From NCBI RefSeq assembly GCF_038397735.1, contig NZ_CP151635.1, positions 3,658,001 through 3,722,000 of the forward strand: 64,000 bases of DNA, written 5' to 3'. Positions within the stretch are counted from its first letter, which is position 1, and each line of letters starts with the position of its first letter. Source of the DNA: Microbacterium sp. LWH13-1.2. Its GTDB lineage: Bacteria; Actinomycetota; Actinomycetes; Actinomycetales; Microbacteriaceae. The notes under the pieces are model-generated. The model was not told where the DNA came from and ran no database searches. It saw only the letters and a list, made by a program, of their open reading frames with translations. This document shows positions 45,028 to 60,243 of this stretch, piece by piece. The translations under genes were made by a program, and so were the position numbers.

Positions 45028-45699
45028 TCAGAGGACGAGCCGGTAACCCATCCCCGACTCGGTCAGCAGGTGTGCCGGTGCGCTCGGTTCGGCCTCGAGC
45101 TTCTTGCGCAGCTGCGACATGTAGAGCCGCAGATAGCCCGAGTCCGACACCTGCTCGCTGCCCCAGATCTCCTTCAGCAGATCCTGCCGGGTGACCAGGG
45201 CTCCGGGGTGCCGGGCGAGGTGCTCGAGCATGCGCCATTCGGTCGGCGTCAGGTGCACGCGCGCACCGGCGCGGGTGACGGTCTTGGTCGCAAGGTCGAC
45301 CACGACGTCGCCGAATCCGACGGTCGATTCGCCACCGGCCGGAACCGATCGACGAGACAGGGCCCGTAACCGCGCGAGCAGCTCGTCGACCTGGAACGGC
45401 TTGGTGACGAAGTCGTCGGCTCCGGCATCCAGCGCCTCGACCTTGTCGGCCGACCCGGTGCGGCCAGACACGACGATGATCGGCACGTTCGTCCATCCGC
45501 GCAGCGCCTGGATCACCTCGATGCCGTCGAGCCGAGGCATCCCGAGGTCGAGCATGATGAGGTCGGGGTGCGTCTGCGCGGCGGCCGCCACGGCGGCGGC
45601 ACCGTCGGGGGCGACGACGACCTCGTAACCGTGGGCGGCGAGCGTGATTCGCAATGCCCGCACCATCTGGGGGTCGTCGTCGGCGATGAGGAGCTTCAC
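45028..45699 (-). CDS. kdpE: KdpE response regulator
   Basis: The 223-residue protein has a receiver (DDD at residues 7-9, phospho-acceptor D51, K in FVTKPF) and an OmpR/PhoB DNA-binding wing ending LLTESGMGYRLVL. It overlaps the end of kdpD by 4 nt and closes the operon. It should activate kdp at low potassium or high osmolarity. OmpR-family proteins bind direct repeats about 11 bp apart; such a repeat lies upstream of this operon and upstream of the KimA-like gene. Confidence 0.95.
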   Translation of the reverse strand: MKLLIADDDPQMVRALRITLAAHGYEVVVAPDGAAAVAAAAQTHPDLIMLDLGMPRLDGIEVIQALRGWTNVPIIVVSGRTGSADKVEALDAGADDFVTKPFQVDELLARLRALSRRSVPAGGESTVGFGDVVVDLATKTVTRAGARVHLTPTEWRMLEHLARHPGALVTRQDLLKEIWGSEQVSDSGYLRLYMSQLRKKLEAEPSAPAHLLTESGMGYRLVL

Positions 45700-48230
45700 T
45701 CCGTCTCCTCCTGCGTGAGATCGGGCTCTGCCGCCAGGGGCAGCGAGATGACCATGGTGAGTCCACCGCCGGGGGTGTCCTCGGGTGTCAGGGTACCGCC
45801 CATGCCCTCGGCGAATCCGCGCGACAGGGCGAGGCCGAGGCCGAGGCCGGTGGTGTTGTCGGTGTCGCCGAGCCGCTGGAACGGCTGGAAGATCTCGTCG
45901 CGCTTCTCGGCGGGAACCCCCGAGCCGCGGTCGATGACACGGATTTCGACGTGGTCGCCGATCGTGCTCGTCGACACGATCACGCGGCTGTCGGCGGGCG
46001 AGTGACGGTGCGCGTTCGCGATGACGTTGACGAGCACCCGTTGCAGCAGCACCGGGTCGGCCGAGACGGCGGGCAGCCCGGCATCCAGCGCCAGCTCGAC
46101 GTCCGACGGACCGAGTCCGAGCTCGTCGACCGCGGCGAGCACGGGGCCTGCGACATCGAGTCGCATGGTCGAGACCGCCAGAACACCGGCCTGCACTCGG
46201 CTGACGTCGAGCAGGTCGGTCACGAGCGACGACAGGGTCGCGAGGCTCTCGTCGGCGGTGGCGAGCAGCTCTTCGCGATCGGATGCCGACAGGGAGTGCG
46301 CCCCGCGGAGCCCGCCGATCGCGGCGACGGCCGAGGCCAGAGGCCGACGCAGATCGTGACTGACGGCCGAGAGCAGCGCGCTGCGCACCTGATCGGTCTC
46401 GGCGAGGGCGGCCACCTCGCGGGCCGTCGCACGCAGGTCGGTGTGCTCGATGGCTGCGGCGAGCTGCGCGACGATCGCGTCGAGCAGGCGCCGGGCCGGA
46501 GTGTCAAGCGGTTCTCCGTGCAGTTCGAGCACCGCGGGCGCAGGCCCGGAGTCGACAGCGATCGTCGTGGAGCGGCCGTCGGGAACCGGTTCGCCGTCGC
46601 TCGCCAGCACCTCGCCGTCGGCGGCGAGCAGTCGCACCCCGGTGAGTCCGAACGCCTCGCGGGTGCGGCTGACCAGGGCGAGCACGGCATTGTCTCCGCG
46701 CAGAACGTTGCCGGCCACGGCGGCGAGAAGCTCGGCCTCGGCGGCTGCTCGCTGGGCGGTGCGGGCACGCCGGGCAGCCTGGTCGACGATGATGCTCACG
46801 AGAATGGCGATCACGACATACAGTGCAAGCGCGAGCACGTGCAGCGGATGCGCGATCGTGATCGTGAAGATCGGCGAGACGAACAGGAAGTCCAGCGTGA
46901 TGCCCGACAGCACCGCCGCGAAGACGGCCGGTCGCAGGCCTCCCACGAGGGCTACGATCACGACGAGCAGTTGGAAGGCCAGCACCTCGACCGTGATCGA
47001 CTCGGGACTGCGGAATGCGAACATCGCCCACGACAGCAGCGGTCCGACGACGAGTGCGATCACGAATCCGAGCACCTGACGACGCCACCCCAGCGCACCG
47101 CCGGTGATGCGGGGGAGTGCGACGCGTCCGCCCGCGGCGGCGTGCGTCACGATGTGCACGTCGATGTCGCCGGAACGGCGGATGACTTCGGATCCGATGC
47201 CCGGTCCGGTGAGTGCCGCTGCGAGACGACCGCGCCGGCTGACGCCGATCACGAGCTGCGTGGCGTCGGCCCCGTGCGCGAACTCGACGAGTGTGCCGGG
47301 GATGTCGTCGCCGATGATCTGGTGGAAGCTGCCGCCGAGCGACTCGACCAGCGAACGCTGTGCTGCGAGAGCACCAGGCGTCTCGTCGCGGAGTCCGTCT
47401 TGTGCTGCGACATGCACCGCGAGCAGCTCGCCGCCCGCCGACCGGGCGGCGATCCGGGCACCGCGCCGCAGCAGCGTCTCTCCCTCGGGTCCACCGGTGA
47501 GCGCCACGACCACGCGCTCGCGCGCCTGCCACGTGCCCTCGATGCCGTGGTCGGCGCGGTAGCTGCGCAGCGCGCTGTCGACCTCGTCGGCCAGCCACAG
47601 CAGTGCGAGTTCGCGGAGCGCCGTGAGGTTGCCGAGACGGAAGTAGTTCGACAGGGCGGCGTCGATCCGCTCGGCGGGGTAGACGAGTCCTGCCGACAGA
47701 CGGTCGCGCAGCGACTGCGGCGCCAGGTCGACGACCTCGATCTCGTCGGCGGCGCGCACCACGGCATCCGGGATCGTCTCCTGCTGCGCGATGCCGGTGA
47801 TCTTCTCGACCACGGCGTTCAGCGATTCGATGTGCTGCACGTTGACCGTCGTGACGACGTCTATGCCCGCGTCCAGCAGAATCCCGACGTCCTGCCAGCG
47901 CTTGGCGTTCTGCGAGCCGGGGGTGTTCGTGTGGGCGAGCTCGTCGACCAGGGCGATCTCGGGGTGCCGAGCGAGCACCGCATCCAGATCCATCTCGCTC
48001 AGCGGCACGCCCCGGTGCAGGTCGGTGCGACGGGGGACCTCGGGGATGCCGATGGTCTGCGCCGCGGTGGCCGCACGCTCGTGCGTCTCGACGATCGCGA
48101 TCACCACGTCGCGGCCCTCATCGAGCAGCCGGCGCCCTTCGACGAGCATCTCGAATGTCTTGCCGACCCCGGGGGCTGCACCGAGCAGCACGCGGAGTCG
48201 GCCGCGCCGCGGCATCCGCTCTGGCGTCAT
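45696..48230 (-). CDS. kdpD: KdpD sensor kinase
   Basis: The 844-residue kinase has the N-terminal KdpD domain with P-loop GAAPGVGKT (17-25) and DELAHTN (96-102), a Usp-like domain (about 235-365), four DUF4118 helices (about 383-482), a GAF-like region, the H-box SAVSHDLRRPLAS with H625, and a HATPase domain (GLGLGLALSRGF). It senses potassium limitation and ionic strength and phosphorylates KdpE. Start ATG 48230 shares a base with the kdpC stop. Confidence 0.96.
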   Translation of the reverse strand: MTPERMPRRGRLRVLLGAAPGVGKTFEMLVEGRRLLDEGRDVVIAIVETHERAATAAQTIGIPEVPRRTDLHRGVPLSEMDLDAVLARHPEIALVDELAHTNTPGSQNAKRWQDVGILLDAGIDVVTTVNVQHIESLNAVVEKITGIAQQETIPDAVVRAADEIEVVDLAPQSLRDRLSAGLVYPAERIDAALSNYFRLGNLTALRELALLWLADEVDSALRSYRADHGIEGTWQARERVVVALTGGPEGETLLRRGARIAARSAGGELLAVHVAAQDGLRDETPGALAAQRSLVESLGGSFHQIIGDDIPGTLVEFAHGADATQLVIGVSRRGRLAAALTGPGIGSEVIRRSGDIDVHIVTHAAAGGRVALPRITGGALGWRRQVLGFVIALVVGPLLSWAMFAFRSPESITVEVLAFQLLVVIVALVGGLRPAVFAAVLSGITLDFLFVSPIFTITIAHPLHVLALALYVVIAILVSIIVDQAARRARTAQRAAAEAELLAAVAGNVLRGDNAVLALVSRTREAFGLTGVRLLAADGEVLASDGEPVPDGRSTTIAVDSGPAPAVLELHGEPLDTPARRLLDAIVAQLAAAIEHTDLRATAREVAALAETDQVRSALLSAVSHDLRRPLASAVAAIGGLRGAHSLSASDREELLATADESLATLSSLVTDLLDVSRVQAGVLAVSTMRLDVAGPVLAAVDELGLGPSDVELALDAGLPAVSADPVLLQRVLVNVIANAHRHSPADSRVIVSTSTIGDHVEIRVIDRGSGVPAEKRDEIFQPFQRLGDTDNTTGLGLGLALSRGFAEGMGGTLTPEDTPGGGLTMVISLPLAAEPDLTQEETE

Positions 48231-48829
48231 CAGCCCTCCTGCTCATCGAGCGCGAGATTGAGTTCGGCGACGTTGATGCGTTCTTCGCCGAGGAATCCCA
48301 GATCCCGCCCTTGAATCCTAGACTCCACGAGGTCACGCACCTGCTGCTCTGGCAGGCCTCGCTCGGCTGCCACCCGCGGCACCTGCAGCAGGGCGTATGC
48401 GACGCTGATGTGCGGGTCGAGGCCCGAGCCCGAAGCGGTCACCGCATCGGCGGGCACGGCGTCGGCGCTCACTCCTTCACGCTCGGCGATGGCCGCCTGG
48501 CGCTCGCCGATCGCGGCGACGAGGTCGGTGTTCTCCGGCCCGAGGTTGCTGCCGCTCGAGCCGGCGCCGTCATAGCCGTCGCCGGCGGCAGACGGGCGCG
48601 ACTGGAAGTACTCGGGAAGCGCCTCGCCGTCGGCGTCCGTGAAGGACTGACCGATCAGCGAGCTGCCCTTGCCGTCGGCCAGCGGAGAGCCGTTCGCCTG
48701 GAACGGCAGCAGCAGCTGGCCGATGCCGGTGACGACGAGCGTGTAGCCGACGCCGAGTACGAGGGTGAGCACGAGCATTGCGCGGATCGCGACCCCGGTG
48801 GTGCGGGCCACGGTGCGGGAGGAGGACAT
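48230..48829 (-). CDS. kdpC: Potassium-transporting ATPase subunit KdpC
   Basis: The 199-residue subunit has one N-terminal membrane helix (about 13-38) with the KdpC signature SRPSAAGDGYDGAGSSGSNL and the late SGLDPHISVAYALLQVPRVA. It stabilises the KdpA-KdpB complex and raises ATP affinity. It is separated from kdpB by 52 bp, the only sizeable gap in the operon. Confidence 0.95.
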   Translation of the reverse strand: MSSSRTVARTTGVAIRAMLVLTLVLGVGYTLVVTGIGQLLLPFQANGSPLADGKGSSLIGQSFTDADGEALPEYFQSRPSAAGDGYDGAGSSGSNLGPENTDLVAAIGERQAAIAEREGVSADAVPADAVTASGSGLDPHISVAYALLQVPRVAAERGLPEQQVRDLVESRIQGRDLGFLGEERINVAELNLALDEQEG

Positions 48830-48881: not shown

Positions 48882-51038
48882 TCAGAAACCGGGGATGAGG
48901 GTGATCAGGAGGTCGATCAGCTTGATGCCGATGAACGGCGCGATCACTCCGCCCAGGCCGTAGACGAGCAGGTTGCGCTGCAGGATCTGCGAGGCGCTCG
49001 CCGGGCGGTACTTCACCCCGCGGAGTGCGAGCGGGATCAGGAAGACGATCACGATCGCGTTGAAGATGATCGCGCTGGTCACGGCGGATGCCGGCGAGTG
49101 CAGCTGCATGACGTTGAGCGCAGCGAGCCCTGGGAAGACGCCCATGAACATCGCCGGGATGATGGCGAAGTACTTGGCGATGTCGTTCGCGAGCGAGAAC
49201 GTCGTGAGTGCTCCGCGGGTGATGAGCAGCTGCTTGCCGATGCGCACGATGTCGATGAGCTTGGTCGGATCCGAGTCGAGGTCGACCATGTTGCCGGCCT
49301 CTTTCGCGGCCGACGTGCCGGTGTTCATCGCGACGCCGACGTCGGCCTGGGCGAGAGCCGGGGCGTCGTTCGTGCCGTCGCCGGTCATGGCGACGAGTCG
49401 GCCGCCCTCCTGTTCGCGCTTGATCAGCTCGAGCTTCTGCTCGGGGGTCGCCTCGGCGAGGAAGTCGTCGACGCCTGCCTCCTTCGCGATGGCCGCGGCG
49501 GTCAGCGGGTTGTCGCCGGTGATCATGACCGTGCGGATGCCCATGCTGCGGAGCTCTTCGAACCGCTCGCGCAGGCCGTCCTTCACGATGTCCTTGAGGT
49601 GCACGACGCCGAGCACCTGGCCGGAGCCGGCCGCATGCTTCACGGCGACCACCAGCGGGGTGCCGCCGCTCGAGGCGACGCCGTCGACGAGGCCGGTGAG
49701 TTCGGCATCCGTGTCGAGCCCGAGCCAGGCGTTGATCGCCGAGCCTGCGCCCTTGCGGATCTGCGTGCCGTCGGCCAGGTCGAGGCCCGACATGCGGGTC
49801 TGGGCGGTGAACGGCACGACCACGGCATCCGCCGGCTCGTCGACCCGGATGCCGCGGCTCAGCGCCAGTTCGACGATCGAGGCACCTTCGGGGGTCGGGT
49901 CGGCGAGTGACGACAGGGCGGCGACGCGCAGCAGTTCGTCGGGGTCGACGCCTCCGAGTCGCAGCACCTCGTGGGCGCGGCGGTTGCCGTAGGTGATGGT
50001 GCCGGTCTTGTCGAGCAGCAGGGTCGTGACGTCGCCCGCGGCCTCGACCGCGCGGCCCGACATGGCGAGCACGTTGCGCTGCACGAGGCGGTCCATGCCG
50101 GCGATGCCGATGGCCGAGAGCAGGGCGCCGATCGTGGTCGGGATCAGGCACACGAGCAGGGCGATCAGCACCGGGATGCTGACGGGCGACGCCGCGTACG
50201 AGGCGATCGGGTTGAGCGCGAGCACCACGACGACGAACACGATCGACAGGCTCGCGAGCAGGATGTTGAGCGCGATCTCGTTGGGCGTGCGCTGACGGCT
50301 GGCGCCCTCGACGAGCGCGATCATGCGGTCGACGAACGTCTCGCCGGGCTTCGACGTGATGCGCACGACGATGCGGTCGGACAGCACTCGCGTGCCTCCG
50401 GTGACGGCACTGCGGTCACCGCCGGATTCGCGGATGACCGGGGCGCTCTCGCCCGTGATCGCCGATTCGTCGACGGTCGCGATGCCCGCGACGATGTCGC
50501 CGTCTCCGGGGATCAGCTCGCCGGCCGTGACGATCACGATGTCGTCGCGCTGCAGCTCGGCCGATGAGACGTCGACCGTCTCGGTGCGCTCTGCCGTGGC
50601 ATCCGCGCCTGCGTCGTAGCGCACCACCCGCCGGGCCATGGTGCTCGTGCGGGTCTTGCGCAGGCTCGCGGCCTGAGCTTTGCCGCGCCCCTCGGCCACC
50701 GATTCGGCGACGTTGGCGAACAGCACGGTCAGCCACAGCCAGATCGCGATGCCCCAGGTGAACGGTGCGGGCACCGGCGTTCCACCCGAGTCGGCGGGAC
50801 CGCCGAGGAAGGGCTCGGCGATCGCCAGCACGGTCGTGAACGCGGCGCCGACCCAGACGAGCAGCATCACGGGGTTGCGCACCAGAGATGCCGGGTTCAG
50901 CTTGCGCAGTGCGCCGGGAAGGGCCTGGGTCAGCTGCGCCCAGCCGAACGCGCGCGGGGCCTCGGCGGGAGCGGATTCGGATGCCCGAGCATCCTGCTGT
51001 TCCGACGGTGTCTCGGAGGGTGTGGTGATGGTGGCCAT
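48882..51038 (-). CDS. kdpB: Potassium-transporting P-type ATPase subunit KdpB
   Basis: The 718-residue P-type ATPase has the phosphorylation site DKTGT (D343), TGES in the actuator domain (195-198), and the hinge [17 protein letters not shown]. About seven membrane helices in the usual order. The first 30 residues are a variable acidic tail. ATP hydrolysis here drives potassium through KdpA. It is 1 nt from kdpA. Confidence 0.97.
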
Positions 51039-51039
51039 G

Positions 51040-52725
51040 TCAGACGAGTCCTTCAGCGAGGGGTCCCAGTGCGAGCACGGGGAAGTAGGTGAGTGCCGTG
51101 ATGATGACCGTGACGGCGGCGAGGAGGCCGACGAACTGCGGTCGGTGCGTGGGCAGTGTTCCGGTGTTCTCCGGCACGCGCTGCTGCGCGGCGAAGGACC
51201 CTGCGAGAGCCAGCACGAGCACGATCGGCAGGAACCGGCCGAGCAGCATCGCGATGCCCAGTGCGGTGTTGAACCACGGGGTGTTCGCAGTGAGGCCGGC
51301 GAAGGCCGAGCCGTTGTTGTTCGACGCCGAGGTGAAGGCGTAGAGCACCTCGCTCATGCCGTGCACACCGGGGTTCAGGATGCTGGTCGCCTCGACGTCC
51401 GCGCGGATGCCGGGGATCGCGAAGCTCAGGGCAGTGCCGATCAGCACGAGGGTGGGCGTCACGAGGATGTAGAGGCTCGCGAGCTTGATCTCCTTCGGGC
51501 CGATGCGCTTGCCGAGGTATTCGGGGGTGCGGCCGACGAGCAGTCCTCCCACGAACACCGCGATGATCGCGAGCACGAGCATGCCGTAGAGACCCGAGCC
51601 GACGCCGCCGGGGGCGACCTCGCCGAGCATCATGTTGAGCATCGGCATCATGCCGCCGAGCGCCGTGTACGAGTCGTGCATCGAGTTGACCGCACCCGTC
51701 GACGTCAGGGTGCTCGCGCTGCCGAACAGCGTCGAGCCGAGGATCCCGAAGCGCACCTCCTTGCCCTCCATGGCGGCACCCGCGAGTTCGGGGGCGCTGC
51801 CGCGGCCGGCGAGTTCGAGGGCCGAGAGCGCGAAGGTCGAGATCAGGAAGATCGTGCTCATCACGGCGGCGATCGCGTAGCCCTGGCGGTTGTCGCCGAT
51901 CATGCGGCCGAACGTGCGGGGGAGTGCGAACGGGATCAGCAGGATCAGCAGGATCTGCAGGAGGTTGGTCCAGCCGGTCGGGTTCTCGAACGGATGGGCG
52001 GAGTTGGCGTTGAAGAACCCGCCGCCGTTCGTGCCGAGCAGCTTGATGGCCTCCTGCGAGGCGACCGGTCCGCCGGGGATCGTCTGCGCGCCACCCGAGA
52101 CGGTGGTCACATCGGTGAAGCCGGCGAAGTTCTGCACCACGCCGCCCGCGATGAGGGCGATGGCCCCGAGCAGGGCGATCGGCAGCAGGATGCGTCCGAG
52201 TCCGCGGATCAGGTCGACCCAGAAGTTGCCGATCGTGGTCGAGCCCCGGCGAGCGAGTCCGCGGATCAGCGCGACCGCGACGGCGAGGCCCACAGCTGCC
52301 GAGACGAAGTTCTGCACCGTGAGGCCCGCGAGCTGCACGGTGTAGCCCATGGTCTGCTCGGGCGAGTACGACTGCCAGTTGGTGTTCGCGACGAACGACG
52401 CGGCGGTGTTGAACGCGAGGCCCTCGGGAACCGCGGGGAGACCGAGCGACTCGGGCAGGAAGCCCTGCAGACGCTGCAGGCCGTATACCAGCAGCAGGCC
52501 GACGACCGAGAACGCGAGCACGCTGCGGGCGTAGGCCCGCCAGGTCTGCTCGGATGCCGGGTCGACGCCGATCAGGCGGTAGATGCCCCTCTCGGCCTTC
52601 AGGTCACGCGGGGTGCTGAAGACGTGGGCCATGTAGTCGCCGACAGGGCGGTAGAGCAGCACGAGGGCGACGATGAGGACGGCGGCCTGAAGGATGCCGA
52701 ACCACAGTTCGGTGCCGGCGCCCAT
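51040..52725 (-). CDS. kdpA: Potassium-transporting ATPase subunit KdpA
   Basis: The 561-residue protein starts at ATG 52725 ([20 protein letters not shown]); a longer frame upstream covers kdpF and is not coding. About ten helices and repeated selectivity-filter segments including [19 protein letters not shown] and [14 protein letters not shown]. KdpA binds and channels potassium in the Kdp complex. Its ATG shares one base with the kdpF stop. Confidence 0.96.
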
Positions 52726-52814
52726 CAGAACTTCTCCGGGGCGACGAGAGCCACCACGAGGTAGACGACGGCGGCCACGGCGAGGGCGGCGGCGATGATC
52801 TCGAAGACGATCAC
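52725..52814 (-). CDS. kdpF: KdpF small membrane subunit
   Basis: A 29-residue single-helix protein starts at GTG 52814 and reads [20 protein letters not shown] in its first 20 residues, ending VAPEKF, which matches the KdpF pattern (LxxYLxxALxxPExF). Its stop TGA shares a base with the kdpA start. It stabilises the Kdp complex. Confidence 0.88.
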
Positions 52815-52894
52815 AGTCGCTCCACCCCCTTCGCAACCAGGGAGACGAGGGCGAACAGCGCGAGAGTCAGCGCGATGTAGATGATGTCGAGCAC
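52811..52894 (-). CDS. 27-residue membrane peptide preceding KdpF
   Basis: A frame from GTG 52894 to TGA at 52811 encodes 27 residues beginning [20 protein letters not shown] and ending KGVERL: a single hydrophobic helix with a charged end. Its stop overlaps the kdpF GTG (GTGA), as in a coupled operon. I recall comparable short peptides (..ALTxAxFAL..GCERL) before kdpF in other Actinobacteria. It would be the first gene of the kdp operon, read from a leaderless transcript. The role is unknown; a subunit or leader peptide are possible. Confidence 0.65.
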
Positions 52895-52902
52895 GAGACT
52901 CG

Positions 52903-52954
52903 ATACAACTCCCGTGCAGACCGGAATATGACGATCCTCACGCTTTGCCTACGG
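52903..52954 (-). promoter_or_regulatory. kdp promoter with candidate KdpE box
   Basis: On the minus strand CCGTAGGCAAAGCGTGAGGA (52935-52954) contains GTAGGCA and GTGAGGA 11 bp apart. After 26 nt comes the -10-like TTGTAT (52903-52908), then 8 nt to the GTG at 52894. The same arrangement, with 16 of 20 motif positions identical, stands before the KimA-like gene. Confidence 0.65.
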
Positions 52955-53097
52955 GGGCGTGCGCGATGCATGCGGGATGCTCACGTCTGGGGCTCGGGCG
53001 AACTTTCATCGTGCCTCGTTGTCGCATTCGGGGCCCGGCGTTCGTGGTGAAGGTGGAGGCGACCGAATCCCGGCCGCCGCACGACACGAGAGACGCG

Positions 53098-56893: not shown

Positions 56894-58969
56894 TCAGCTC
56901 TCGGGGGGACCCTCGGGCCTGTGTGCGCGGCGTCCGCTCACGACGACCGGGCGGCCTGCGCGCTCCTGCCCGGGCAGGGGCCGCGAGCGCCGACCGTAGA
57001 TGAGCTCAGACGAGTCGAGCAGCCACGGCACGAGCGTGATCGACACCCCGTGCACGAGCATCAGCTGATTGGCCAGGCGGCGGGCGCGGCGGTTGTGCAG
57101 GAACGTCTCCCACCAGTGCCCCACGATGTACTGCGGAAGGTAGACCGTGACCACAGAGGAGCCGTGCTTCTCGCGGTACTGCTTGATGAACTGCGAGACC
57201 GGCTGGGCGAACGACCGGTACGGCGACTCGACGATCACGAGCGGGATCGGCACGAGGTGGTCGGCCCAGTCCTTCTGCAGCTGAGTGGCGTCGTCGGATG
57301 CGACGGCGACGTGCACCGCGAGGGTCTTGCCGTGCTTCGCGGCGATCGCGTAGTCGATCGCCTTGACGACCGGCTTCTGCAGTCGGTTGACGAGCACGAT
57401 CGCGAGGTCGCCCGTGGCGCCGAACTTGGTGGTGTCGTCGATCGCGATCTCGTGCTCCACGTCGCGGTAGTACCGCTTGACGCCCATCATCAGGAAGGCG
57501 AGCACGGGGATCGCGAAGAACACCAGATACGCGCCGTGGGTGAACTTGGTGATCGTCACGATCAGCAGCACCGTGACCGTCATGGCGGCGCCGACCGAGT
57601 TGATGATCAGGCCCATCTTCGCCGAGCGGCGATCGGATGCCGAGGCTCCGTCGATCCCGGAGCCCGCTTTGTCTTCGACCGGTCCGCGCAGCACGCGCTT
57701 CCAGTGCCTCACCATGCCGATCTGCCCGAGCGAGAACGACACGAACACACCGATGATGTACAGCTGGATCAGCGTCGTGAGCTTCGCCTGGAAGATCACG
57801 AGCACGGCGATCGCGGCGATGCCGAGCACGATCATGCCGTTCGAGAACACGAGGCGGTCGCCGCGGGTGTTCAGCGACTTCGGCGCGTAGCCGTCGCGAG
57901 CGAGCACCGACCCGAGCAGCGGGAATCCGTTGAAGGCGGTGTTGGCCGCGAGCAGCAGCACGCACGCGGTCGCCGCCTGGATGATGAAGAACAGGATGCT
58001 GCCGCCGCCGAACGTCGCCGAGGCGATCTGCGCCATCAGGCTCGGCTGCGGGGTGGAGCAGTCGAAGCCGATCAGGTCGCACGGGTTCTCGGCGTAGTGC
58101 ACGCCGGCGATCAGGGCGAGGGCGGTGAGGCCGGCGAACAGGCAGGCAGCGATCGAGCCCATCAGGACGAGGGTGGTCTGGGCGTTGCGGACCTTGGGTG
58201 TGCGGAAGGCGGGCACGCCGTTCGACACGGCCTCGACGCCGGTGAGGGCGGAGCATCCGCTCGAGAATGCCCGAAGGATCAGAAGAATCACGGCGGCCTG
58301 GCCGAGGTCTTCGGAGTGCACTGCGAATTCGGCGCTGGAGGCGACCGGCGCATCGCCGAGGAACGTGCGGAACAGTCCGGTCACGATCATGAAGCCGACC
58401 GAGGCGATGAAGACGTATGTGGGGATCGCGAAGACGAGCGAGGCCTCGCGTACGCCGCGCAGGTTGACGATGATGATGAGGATCACGAAGCCGACAGCCA
58501 GCTCGACGCGCAGCGGATCGAGGCCCGGAACCGCCGAGATGATGTTGTCGACACCCGATGCCACCGACACGGCGACCGTCAGCACGTAGTCGACGAGCAG
58601 GGCCGCCGCCACGATGACGCCGGGGATCTCGCCGAGGTTCTTCGACGCGACCTCGTAGTCGCCGCCGCCCGACGGATAGGCCTTGATGAGCTGGCGATAG
58701 CTGAGCACCACGACGATCAGCAGCACGACGACCGCGACGGCCACGAGCGGGGTGAACGACAGGAACGTCAGACCGCCGATCAGCAGGATCATCACGAGTT
58801 CCTGCGGCGCGTAGGCGACCGAGCTCAGTGCGTCCGACGCGAAGATAGGCAGTGCCATCTTCTTCGGGAGCAGCTGGTCGTCGACCTGCGCACTCGTCAG
58901 CGGGTCGCCGATGAGGATGCGCTTGGCGCGAGGAGGGGCGTCCGTGTTGTCGCGGGTTTCATCTGACAC
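56894..58969 (-). CDS. kimA: KimA-like potassium/proton symporter (APC superfamily)
   Basis: Read from GTG 58969 the protein has 691 residues; in-frame GTGs at 58981 and 59005 would add 4 or 12, but 59005 lies inside the regulatory repeat. The N-terminal RILIGDPLTSAQVDDQLLPK, FASDALSSVAYAPQE, YRQLIKAYPSGGGDYEVASK, and FSSGCSALTGVEAVSNGVPA closely match B. subtilis KimA. Twelve helices are followed by a cytoplasmic domain of about 220 residues. KimA imports potassium with protons and is inhibited by c-di-AMP. I see no c-di-AMP riboswitch in the leader; instead two copies of the kdp motif lie upstream. Assignment as a potassium carrier is from homology. Confidence 0.85.
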   Translation of the reverse strand: MSDETRDNTDAPPRAKRILIGDPLTSAQVDDQLLPKKMALPIFASDALSSVAYAPQELVMILLIGGLTFLSFTPLVAVAVVVLLIVVVLSYRQLIKAYPSGGGDYEVASKNLGEIPGVIVAAALLVDYVLTVAVSVASGVDNIISAVPGLDPLRVELAVGFVILIIIVNLRGVREASLVFAIPTYVFIASVGFMIVTGLFRTFLGDAPVASSAEFAVHSEDLGQAAVILLILRAFSSGCSALTGVEAVSNGVPAFRTPKVRNAQTTLVLMGSIAACLFAGLTALALIAGVHYAENPCDLIGFDCSTPQPSLMAQIASATFGGGSILFFIIQAATACVLLLAANTAFNGFPLLGSVLARDGYAPKSLNTRGDRLVFSNGMIVLGIAAIAVLVIFQAKLTTLIQLYIIGVFVSFSLGQIGMVRHWKRVLRGPVEDKAGSGIDGASASDRRSAKMGLIINSVGAAMTVTVLLIVTITKFTHGAYLVFFAIPVLAFLMMGVKRYYRDVEHEIAIDDTTKFGATGDLAIVLVNRLQKPVVKAIDYAIAAKHGKTLAVHVAVASDDATQLQKDWADHLVPIPLVIVESPYRSFAQPVSQFIKQYREKHGSSVVTVYLPQYIVGHWWETFLHNRRARRLANQLMLVHGVSITLVPWLLDSSELIYGRRSRPLPGQERAGRPVVVSGRRAHRPEGPPES

Positions 58970-58977
58970 GTCGGGCG

Positions 58978-59061
58978 ACACTACGCCCGCGAACGCCTTC
59001 CTCACGCGTTCCTCACGGAATCCCTACGGGCGCACGCGCTGTCCTCACGCAATCCTTACGG
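58978..59061 (-). promoter_or_regulatory. KimA-gene promoter with two candidate KdpE boxes
   Basis: On the minus strand CCGTAAGGATTGCGTGAGGA (59042-59061) and CCGTAGGGATTCCGTGAGGA (59010-59029) differ at two positions and lie 32 bp apart. A fifth GTGAGGA is at 58999-59005. In total GTRRGGA 7-mers begin 11, 11, 21 and 11 bp apart. From the second box there are 26 nt to TAGTGT (58978-58983) and 8 nt to GTG 58969, exactly as at kdp. Confidence 0.65.
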
Positions 59062-59544: not shown

Positions 59545-60243
59545 ATGACGTCCCTTCAGGTCACCGACGACGCCATCCAGCAGACTCGGGAGCTCCGCGA
59601 TGAGTTCCAGCGCTTCCTGCGCGAATACGAGTTCGGGATGCGGGAGGTCGAGACGAAGATCTCGATCCTTCGTGACGAGTTCACCCACCACCACGCGTAC
59701 AACCCGATCGAGCACGTCAAGAGCCGGCTGAAGACTCCCGACAGCATCGTCGAGAAGATCGCCCGCAAGGGCATCGCCGAGCCGGACTTCGAGCGCATCC
59801 GCGCCGAGATCACCGACATCGCCGGCGTGCGCGTCACCTGCAGCTTCGTCGCCGACGTCTACCGTCTGTTCGATCTGCTCACCGCGCAGGACGACGTGAC
59901 CGTCGTCACCGTCAAGGACTACATCGCGACCCCGAAGGACAACGGCTACAAGAGCCTGCACGCGATCATCGAGGTGCCGGTGTTCCTGTCGACCGGTGCC
60001 CTGTCGGTGCCGGTCGAGGTGCAGTTCCGCACCATCGCGATGGACTTCTGGGCCAGCCTCGAGCACAAGATCTACTACAAGTTCTCGAACCAGGTGCCCT
60101 CGCACCTCGTCGAGAGCCTGACGGATGCCGCCGAGGCCGCCGCCGAGCTCGACAGTCGCATGGAGCGCCTGCACCGCGAGGCCCACGGTGTGCCCCAGCG
60201 CCAGCTCGCCCCGCCGCCGCCCCCGCACGTCGTGCAGGTCTGA
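59545..60243 (+). CDS. Small alarmone synthetase (RelA/SpoT-domain GTP pyrophosphokinase)
   Basis: The 232-residue protein starts at ATG 59545. It contains only the synthetase domain: IVEKIARKGI, AEITDIAGVRVTCSFVADVY, DYIATPKDNGYKSLHAIIEV, and the acidic catalytic VEVQFRTIAMDFWASLEHKI. No hydrolase, TGS or ACT domain, so it is a RelQ/RelP-type enzyme that makes (p)ppGpp from ATP and GTP/GDP. A Pro-rich tail of about 15 residues closes it. Confidence 0.93.
   Translation: MTSLQVTDDAIQQTRELRDEFQRFLREYEFGMREVETKISILRDEFTHHHAYNPIEHVKSRLKTPDSIVEKIARKGIAEPDFERIRAEITDIAGVRVTCSFVADVYRLFDLLTAQDDVTVVTVKDYIATPKDNGYKSLHAIIEVPVFLSTGALSVPVEVQFRTIAMDFWASLEHKIYYKFSNQVPSHLVESLTDAAEAAAELDSRMERLHREAHGVPQRQLAPPPPPHVVQV

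Follow-up and report, generated by a model that had tools for sequence, protein, structure and literature searches.

Are the two potassium importers encoded in one 64,000-nucleotide stretch of the genome of the soil bacterium Microbacterium sp. LWH13-1.2 (NZ_CP151635.1; the genome is one contig of 3,771,418 bases) placed under a single regulator? This stretch, hereafter the window, to which all positions refer, carries on its minus strand a complete kdp operon and a kimA-like gene, both preceded by copies of a 20-base-pair (bp) element composed of two half-sites. A preliminary description of the window had proposed KdpE, the response regulator encoded at 45028, as the simplest candidate regulator of both promoters. 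Comparison of sequences makes it highly probable that these repeats are binding sites for this KdpE, which would co-induce kdpFABC and kimA at low potassium. The promoter elements in question are the following.

59042..59061, minus strand: predicted distal KdpE box of kimA, CCGTAAGGATTGCGTGAGGA, two 7-bp half-sites with an 11-bp period (29.2 bits on the kdp-only matrix)
59010..59029, minus strand: predicted proximal KdpE box of kimA, CCGTAGGGATTCCGTGAGGA, the -10 element starting 26 nucleotides after it (31.4 bits on the kdp-only matrix)
58999..59005, minus strand: GTGAGGA, a third half-site in phase with the proximal pair and located at the kimA -35 position (the pair 58999-59018 scores 20.8 bits)
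58978..58983, minus strand: -10 element of kimA, TAGTGT, without a -35 TTG
52967..52984, minus strand: GTGAGCAtcccGCATGCA, a degenerate second kdp box lying 32 bp 5' of the main one
52935..52954, minus strand: predicted KdpE box of kdp, CCGTAGGCAAAGCGTGAGGA, the -10 element starting 26 nucleotides after it (29.1 bits; the site belongs to the training set of the matrix)
52903..52908, minus strand: -10 element of kdp, TTGTAT, conserved at this offset in kdp promoters

The three 20-mers lie on the minus strand at the coordinates given in the preliminary description, and a recount of the identity between the kdp copy and each kimA copy again gave 16 of 20 positions. The distances that it had reported for both promoters, 26 nucleotides from box to -10 element and 8 nucleotides from there to GTG codons at 52894 and 58969, are also correct, but the 8 nucleotides are not part of the motif geometry, since the corresponding gap in the kdp operons of relatives, from the -10 element to a small first open reading frame, is 6-8 nucleotides in 29/70 and 47-101 nucleotides in 41/70. 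Two elements were absent from that description. The third half-site of kimA, whose GTGAGG lies 16 bp ahead of the -10 element, extends the proximal copy to three units, and the degenerate kdp box, weak as it is (-5.5 bits), stands from the main kdp box at the same 32-bp spacing that separates the two kimA pairs.

Searches of the whole genome point to the same two promoters. The pattern GTRRGGA-N4-GTRRGGA is matched exactly at three positions, each of them at kimA, and its sole match with one mismatch is that of kdp. When up to two mismatches are allowed, 163 matches are obtained as against 152 in a reversed control; therefore, only the close matches carry meaning. A tighter pattern with at most one mismatch gives three sites, of which two belong to kimA and the third to kdp. 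Relaxed to three mismatches in a search for further targets, it gives six sites, four of them at kimA or kdp; the two remaining weak sites were rejected because the reversed control also gives six. In the window, the kdp-only matrix finds four sites above 8 bits, namely three at kimA and the kdp site of its own training set. The upstream regions of kdp and kimA otherwise have nothing in common by blastn except a 9-mer, GCGTGAGGA, within the boxes. The motif is real and not a product of chance.

The matrix was built from the kdp promoters of relatives. The kdp regions were fetched, kdpA was located and its upstream DNA taken, from 58 of the 61 kdpB-positive genomes with kimA (not G148, G149 and G159) and from 14 of the 62 kdpB-positive genomes of another search, while L180 and L187 (no kdpA start) and L198 (a kdp remnant) were left out. 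The resulting 72 Microbacteriaceae promoters, the window included and kimA excluded, yield a 20-bp matrix with the consensus CCGTAKGGAWWCCGTGAGGA. All 72 contain a site above the 99th percentile of shuffled sequences, two of them weakly (L202, 8.6 bits; L210, 8.4 bits). These two weak sites count against the proposal, and so does the fact that the matrix was optimised on the same promoters that it scores, near-identical species among them. At exactly 26 nucleotides from the box, hexamer positions 1, 2, 5 and 6 read T in 64, T in 61, A in 55 and T in 62 of these promoters, and the 26-nucleotide gap is shared generally by the kdp promoters of Microbacteriaceae. In the interval from 20 to 44 bp further upstream, the highest-scoring second box lies at 32 bp in 60/72 and exceeds 5 bits in 32 of those.

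Outside the family, the best-scoring 27 of 66 genomes with KdpA were examined with 60 shuffles each. The top site of the kdp promoter reaches p<=0.02 in 16/27, including one on the opposite strand and one that is not box-like (L263, L277). Several of these sites follow the pattern GTNNRGR-N4-GTCAAGR, and the 32-bp spacing often recurs.

The preliminary description had suggested a scan of relatives and had named absence of the motif from kdp or kimA as an argument against a shared regulon; the motif was found at all 72 Microbacteriaceae kdp promoters examined, two of them weakly, and at 35 of 80 kimA promoters. The description had also asked whether matches concentrate upstream of potassium importer genes, and the exact ones do so completely. 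Across 59 genomes of the genus, CGTADGGAWWSCGTRAGGA without mismatches has 30 matches in 25 genomes (the own genome included, with two matches), while the reversed control has none. All 30, distributed over 25 promoters, lie upstream of kimA (16, in 11 promoters) or kdp (14).

The kimA promoters themselves are of two kinds. Similarity to KimA gave 80 loci, 79 of them with upstream DNA (L087 has none), which together with the window make 80 promoters. Boxes above 10 bits are present in 35 and absent from 45, as compared with 6 of 2000 shuffled promoters. Among the box-bearing promoters, 24 are of the direct type seen in the window, the distance from the end of the box to the -10 element being 26 nucleotides in 19 and 27 nucleotides in five. 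The other 11 have a second arrangement in which this distance is 37 nucleotides (nine promoters) or 26 nucleotides (two), 37 being 26 plus one 11-bp turn; six of them (L031, L034, L046, L047, L057, L058) also carry an inverted box that ends about 2 bp before the -10 element. A TTG at the -35 position occurs in 1/35 box-bearing but 42/45 box-less promoters (Fisher p 5.8e-18, relatedness ignored). Thus, a kimA promoter seems to be either complete in itself or dependent on boxes. The gap from the -10 element to the GTG is 8 nucleotides in 80/80 kimA loci, which supports the relocation of the KimA start to 58969 put forward in the preliminary description; the choice of the -10 element gave this gap a bonus, and the gap is nonetheless visible in the sequences themselves. 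If transcription begins at the GTG at 58969, which we infer, the kimA mRNA would be leaderless.

Which regulator reads the box is suggested by a footprint in a distant relative. The KdpE footprint described at the kdpF promoter of Mycobacterium smegmatis, 5'-CCGTAAAGAAACCATCAAGGCC-3' (PMC5401905), aligns with the family kdp matrix ungapped and in exact register (7.35 bits, shuffle p 5e-5). With a class matrix of 22 out-of-family kdp sites it scores 23.6 bits, a value not reached in 50,000 shuffles, although this test is weaker than the figure suggests because the 22 sites were hand-picked. It is the one mapped actinobacterial KdpE site that was found. On account of the footprint match and of the boxes on out-of-family kdp promoters, KdpE is the most economical reader of the box. 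The regulator of the window itself, a receiver joined to a winged helix-turn-helix domain and encoded next to kdpD, has KdpE as its best match; among solved structures the closest is E. coli KdpE (4kny, 1e-58, full length).

KdpE was found in 32/32 typed box-bearing genomes, and in the window, as compared with 30/40 typed box-less genomes (Fisher p 0.0017; untyped are L012, L038, L039, L049, L068 and L086, and L026 and L087 were not searched for kdpB; L012 and L026 are the box-bearing loci left untyped for KdpE). The kdpB gene was found in 61 of the 78 genomes searched; in the 17 without it, KdpE is kept in 5/5 with kimA boxes and 2/12 without (Fisher p 0.0034, relatedness ignored). KdpB and KdpE were sought genome-wide in these five, and kdpA and kdpC solely in the fetched neighbourhood. 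Here (L192-L196) a shortened kdpD followed by kdpE lies near the box-bearing kimA, immediately downstream in four and behind two genes in L195 that are Suf-like in our reading. The shortened KdpD has no PF02702 match in 5/5 and keeps the DUF4118, HisKA and HATPase domains. As the N-terminal domain of E. coli KdpD is described as an atypical Ser kinase with KdpB as its substrate (PMC11018627), its loss is expected where KdpB is gone. On the tree, these five genomes need four changes; since the tree leaves open the fork at which L032 and L041 branch, and since L082 is of unsure placement (long branch), they are counted as three or four places in Microbacterium.

A comparable case was met in another family. 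Class-wide, KimA relatives occur in 133/148 genomes, of which the best 29 loci besides the window, 28 of them outside the family, were scanned; 27/29 kimA promoters have no site at p<=0.025. L291, from genome G364, has two kimA boxes 32 bp apart, and its neighbourhood, fetched after the boxes were discovered, holds three successive genes, for KimA, a KdpD lacking PF02702 and KdpE. G364, searched for KdpA and not for KdpB, is not among the 69 KdpA matches obtained. The kimA site of L292 was rejected, being single, on the minus strand and without kdpDE nearby. A search of 199 genomes of its genus gave matches in 189, and in the 30 loci that were inspected G364 itself was the only genome with KimA beside the truncated KdpD. 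It is probable, on these gene arrangements, that KdpDE can part from the Kdp pump and has repeatedly been re-used as the dedicated regulator of KimA, in a self-contained and self-regulated potassium-import module. This would have happened at three or four places in Microbacterium, where kdpB was not found, and in one genome from outside the family, where kdpA was not found.

Potassium limitation would, in the proposed mechanism, lead to phosphorylated KdpE, which would bind the paired 11-bp repeats 5' of kdpFABC and kimA and recruit RNA polymerase to promoters with a -10 element but without a usable -35 element, so that the ATP-driven pump and the proton-driven KimA would be induced together. 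We infer the binding of KdpE in this species, activation rather than repression, the low-potassium signal and the start at the GTG; an activator role of KdpE under low potassium is the most likely one, and it is very likely that the same KdpE controls kdpFABC and kimA in this genome.

Several rival explanations have to be weighed against this proposal. Heptamers repeated every 11 bp serve several regulator families, as exemplified by the direct repeats of PhoP, described as 7 bp with a 4-bp spacer (PMC4832192), and by the heptamers described for SARP-LAL regulators (PMC5930380), and the boxes might be bound by another OmpR-family or SARP-type regulator, with KdpE a bystander. Box-less kimA genomes often have KdpE, and once relatedness is allowed for, the co-occurrence of box and KdpE is uninformative, as would suit a bystander. 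Such a regulator is nevertheless unlikely, given the in-register match to the M. smegmatis footprint, the presence of the box on the kdp promoters of the family and of part of the class, and the retention of KdpE in every typed box-bearing genome, those without kdpB included. It is also conceivable, if rather improbable, that KdpE binds the kimA boxes and represses the gene or acts as a dual regulator, for example by covering the promoter when phosphorylated. The third half-site at the -35 position speaks for it, as do the six relatives with an inverted box, which beside the -10 element would fit repression as well as activation. However, the scarcity of the -35 TTG in box-bearing promoters is expected of an activator-dependent promoter, and the 26-nucleotide geometry of kimA is that of kdp, which KdpE activates in M. 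smegmatis.

Control of kimA by cyclic di-AMP (c-di-AMP) through a leader RNA, the boxes being minor, has a precedent in Bacillus, where such control of the gene is described in the B. subtilis and B. cereus groups (PMC6488665), but it is very improbable here. There is no Rfam match at gathering thresholds in the 44-64 kb part of the window, and the mere 8 nucleotides between the -10 element and the GTG leave no room for a riboswitch; a riboswitch or other RNA leader at kimA was rejected on both grounds. Control of the KimA protein itself by c-di-AMP is a separate matter and may occur. That the repeats reflect chance or inherited similarity, without any shared regulator, can draw on the near-equality of the loosest genome matches with their reversed control; it is contradicted by the confinement of all exact genus-wide matches to kimA and kdp, and the upstream regions lack other blastn similarity while the box is kept across differing direct and inverted arrangements. 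This explanation is the least probable of those considered.

Other observations weigh against control by KdpE, or narrow its reach. On a KimA tree inferred by a quick method, the box state needs just four changes, three of them forced by supported branches, and therefore the promoter counts are not independent. In 3/3 independent pairs the box and the -35 TTG replace each other in the same direction, but so few pairs are unable to reach significance (sign test p 0.25). KdpE differs in 0.5 of these three pairs on average, so the p-value for its co-occurrence with the box carries little weight. The KdpE of the window scores 225 bits with its best NCBIfam model (KdpE, PRK10529), below the cut-off of 325; this model looks tuned to enterobacterial KdpE. 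Beyond the family, 11/27 kdp promoters have no site at p<=0.02, and a convincing paired box is present in only one, L291, of the 28 kimA promoters scanned. The link between KdpE and kimA is lineage-specific and not general even in Microbacterium, because 45/80 kimA promoters are without a box, 42 of these having a -35 element, and because KdpE is also present in three-quarters of the typed box-less genomes. Thus, the preliminary attribution of both importers to a single KdpE gains from the footprint match and from the retention of kdpE beside kimA without kdpB, gets little help from co-occurrence, and is confined to particular lineages.

Control of kimA by KdpE is unreported in the titles and abstract openings found among open-licence PMC papers, and the present case would add a member to the KdpE regulon and combines known parts in a new way. 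One close parallel is the kdpF site of M. smegmatis, where KdpE is described as regulating kdpFABC positively and expression as responding to low potassium; its half-sites, GTAAAGA-N4-ATCAAGG, are 11 bp apart in the same register as here. It differs in the second half-site (ATCAAGG versus GTGAGGA here), in a 120-bp 5' untranslated region as against 8 nucleotides, and in that kdp is the single target described. Its authors saw no noticeable similarity to other KdpE sites, whereas here it groups with actinobacterial kdp boxes (all PMC5401905). The described E. coli operator likewise has two direct half-sites bound by the winged helix-turn-helix domain of KdpE, but these are AT-rich 6-bp repeats and not GTRNGGA as here (PMC3264566). 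In Bacillus, one signal is described as coordinating kimA with other potassium importers (ktrAB, kdp); it acts at the RNA level through a c-di-AMP riboswitch, whereas a DNA-binding two-component regulator is proposed here and no riboswitch was found (PMC6488665). The KdpD of the window shares the N-terminal PF02702 domain of the KdpD described as a tandem serine/histidine kinase, while that of the kdpB-less relatives, having lost PF02702, is truncated in the opposite sense, as the short KdpDs of the same account lack histidine kinase domains (PMC11018627). KimA is usually discussed as c-di-AMP-controlled; here its transcription, jointly with that of the Kdp pump, would be governed by a two-component system that senses potassium. 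The box can serve as a motif with which to look for KdpE targets in Actinobacteria, the sole site mapped there having seemed unrelated to others. In the kdpB-less genomes, nature has provided an experiment in which the histidine-kinase function of KdpD is set apart from its action as a Ser kinase on KdpB.

The genes of the two loci are listed below.

56894..58969, minus strand: kimA, GTG start at 58969 (PDB 6s3k KimA, 1.6e-115)
52811..52894, minus strand: open reading frame of 27 amino acids, first of the kdp operon, overlapping kdpF
52725..52814, minus strand: kdpF (PF09604)
51040..52725, minus strand: kdpA
48882..51038, minus strand: kdpB (TIGR01497)
48230..48829, minus strand: kdpC (TIGR00681)
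45696..48230, minus strand: kdpD, full length, N-terminal PF02702 domain at residues 8-217
45028..45699, minus strand: kdpE, OmpR-family response regulator, proposed regulator of both promoters

No gene is missing from the kdp operon, in which the small open reading frame is followed by kdpF, A, B, C, D and E. The KimA-like protein (691 amino acids) has full-length similarity to PDB 6s3k, 8b70 and 8b71 over residues 15-649, and appears by predicted function to be a proton-driven potassium importer. The product of the 27-amino-acid open reading frame is membrane-like and without a Pfam match; a comparable open reading frame is present in 70/72 kdp operons, and the product may be another small subunit of Kdp, as yet without a name.

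Some further features of the kdp operons and of the kimA neighbourhood were observed. The clade of the window has the 6-8-nucleotide kdp leader, and long leaders are found, for example, in L138 and L173. One genome, G163, has two kdp operons (L159 and L160), both with boxes (21.6 and 32.5 bits), and its KdpE proteins are 63% and 83% identical to that of the window. An apparent kdp remnant in a genome without a kdpB match (G175, L198 2664-5119) consists of a KdpE box, a fragment that matches residues 5-76 of kdpA, residues 500-830 of kdpD, and kdpE. In the window, kimA is adjoined by a gene for a small RelA/SpoT-type synthetase (59545-60243, plus strand), whose best NCBIfam model, YjbM-like GTP diphosphokinase, gives 184 bits, below the cut-off of 320.

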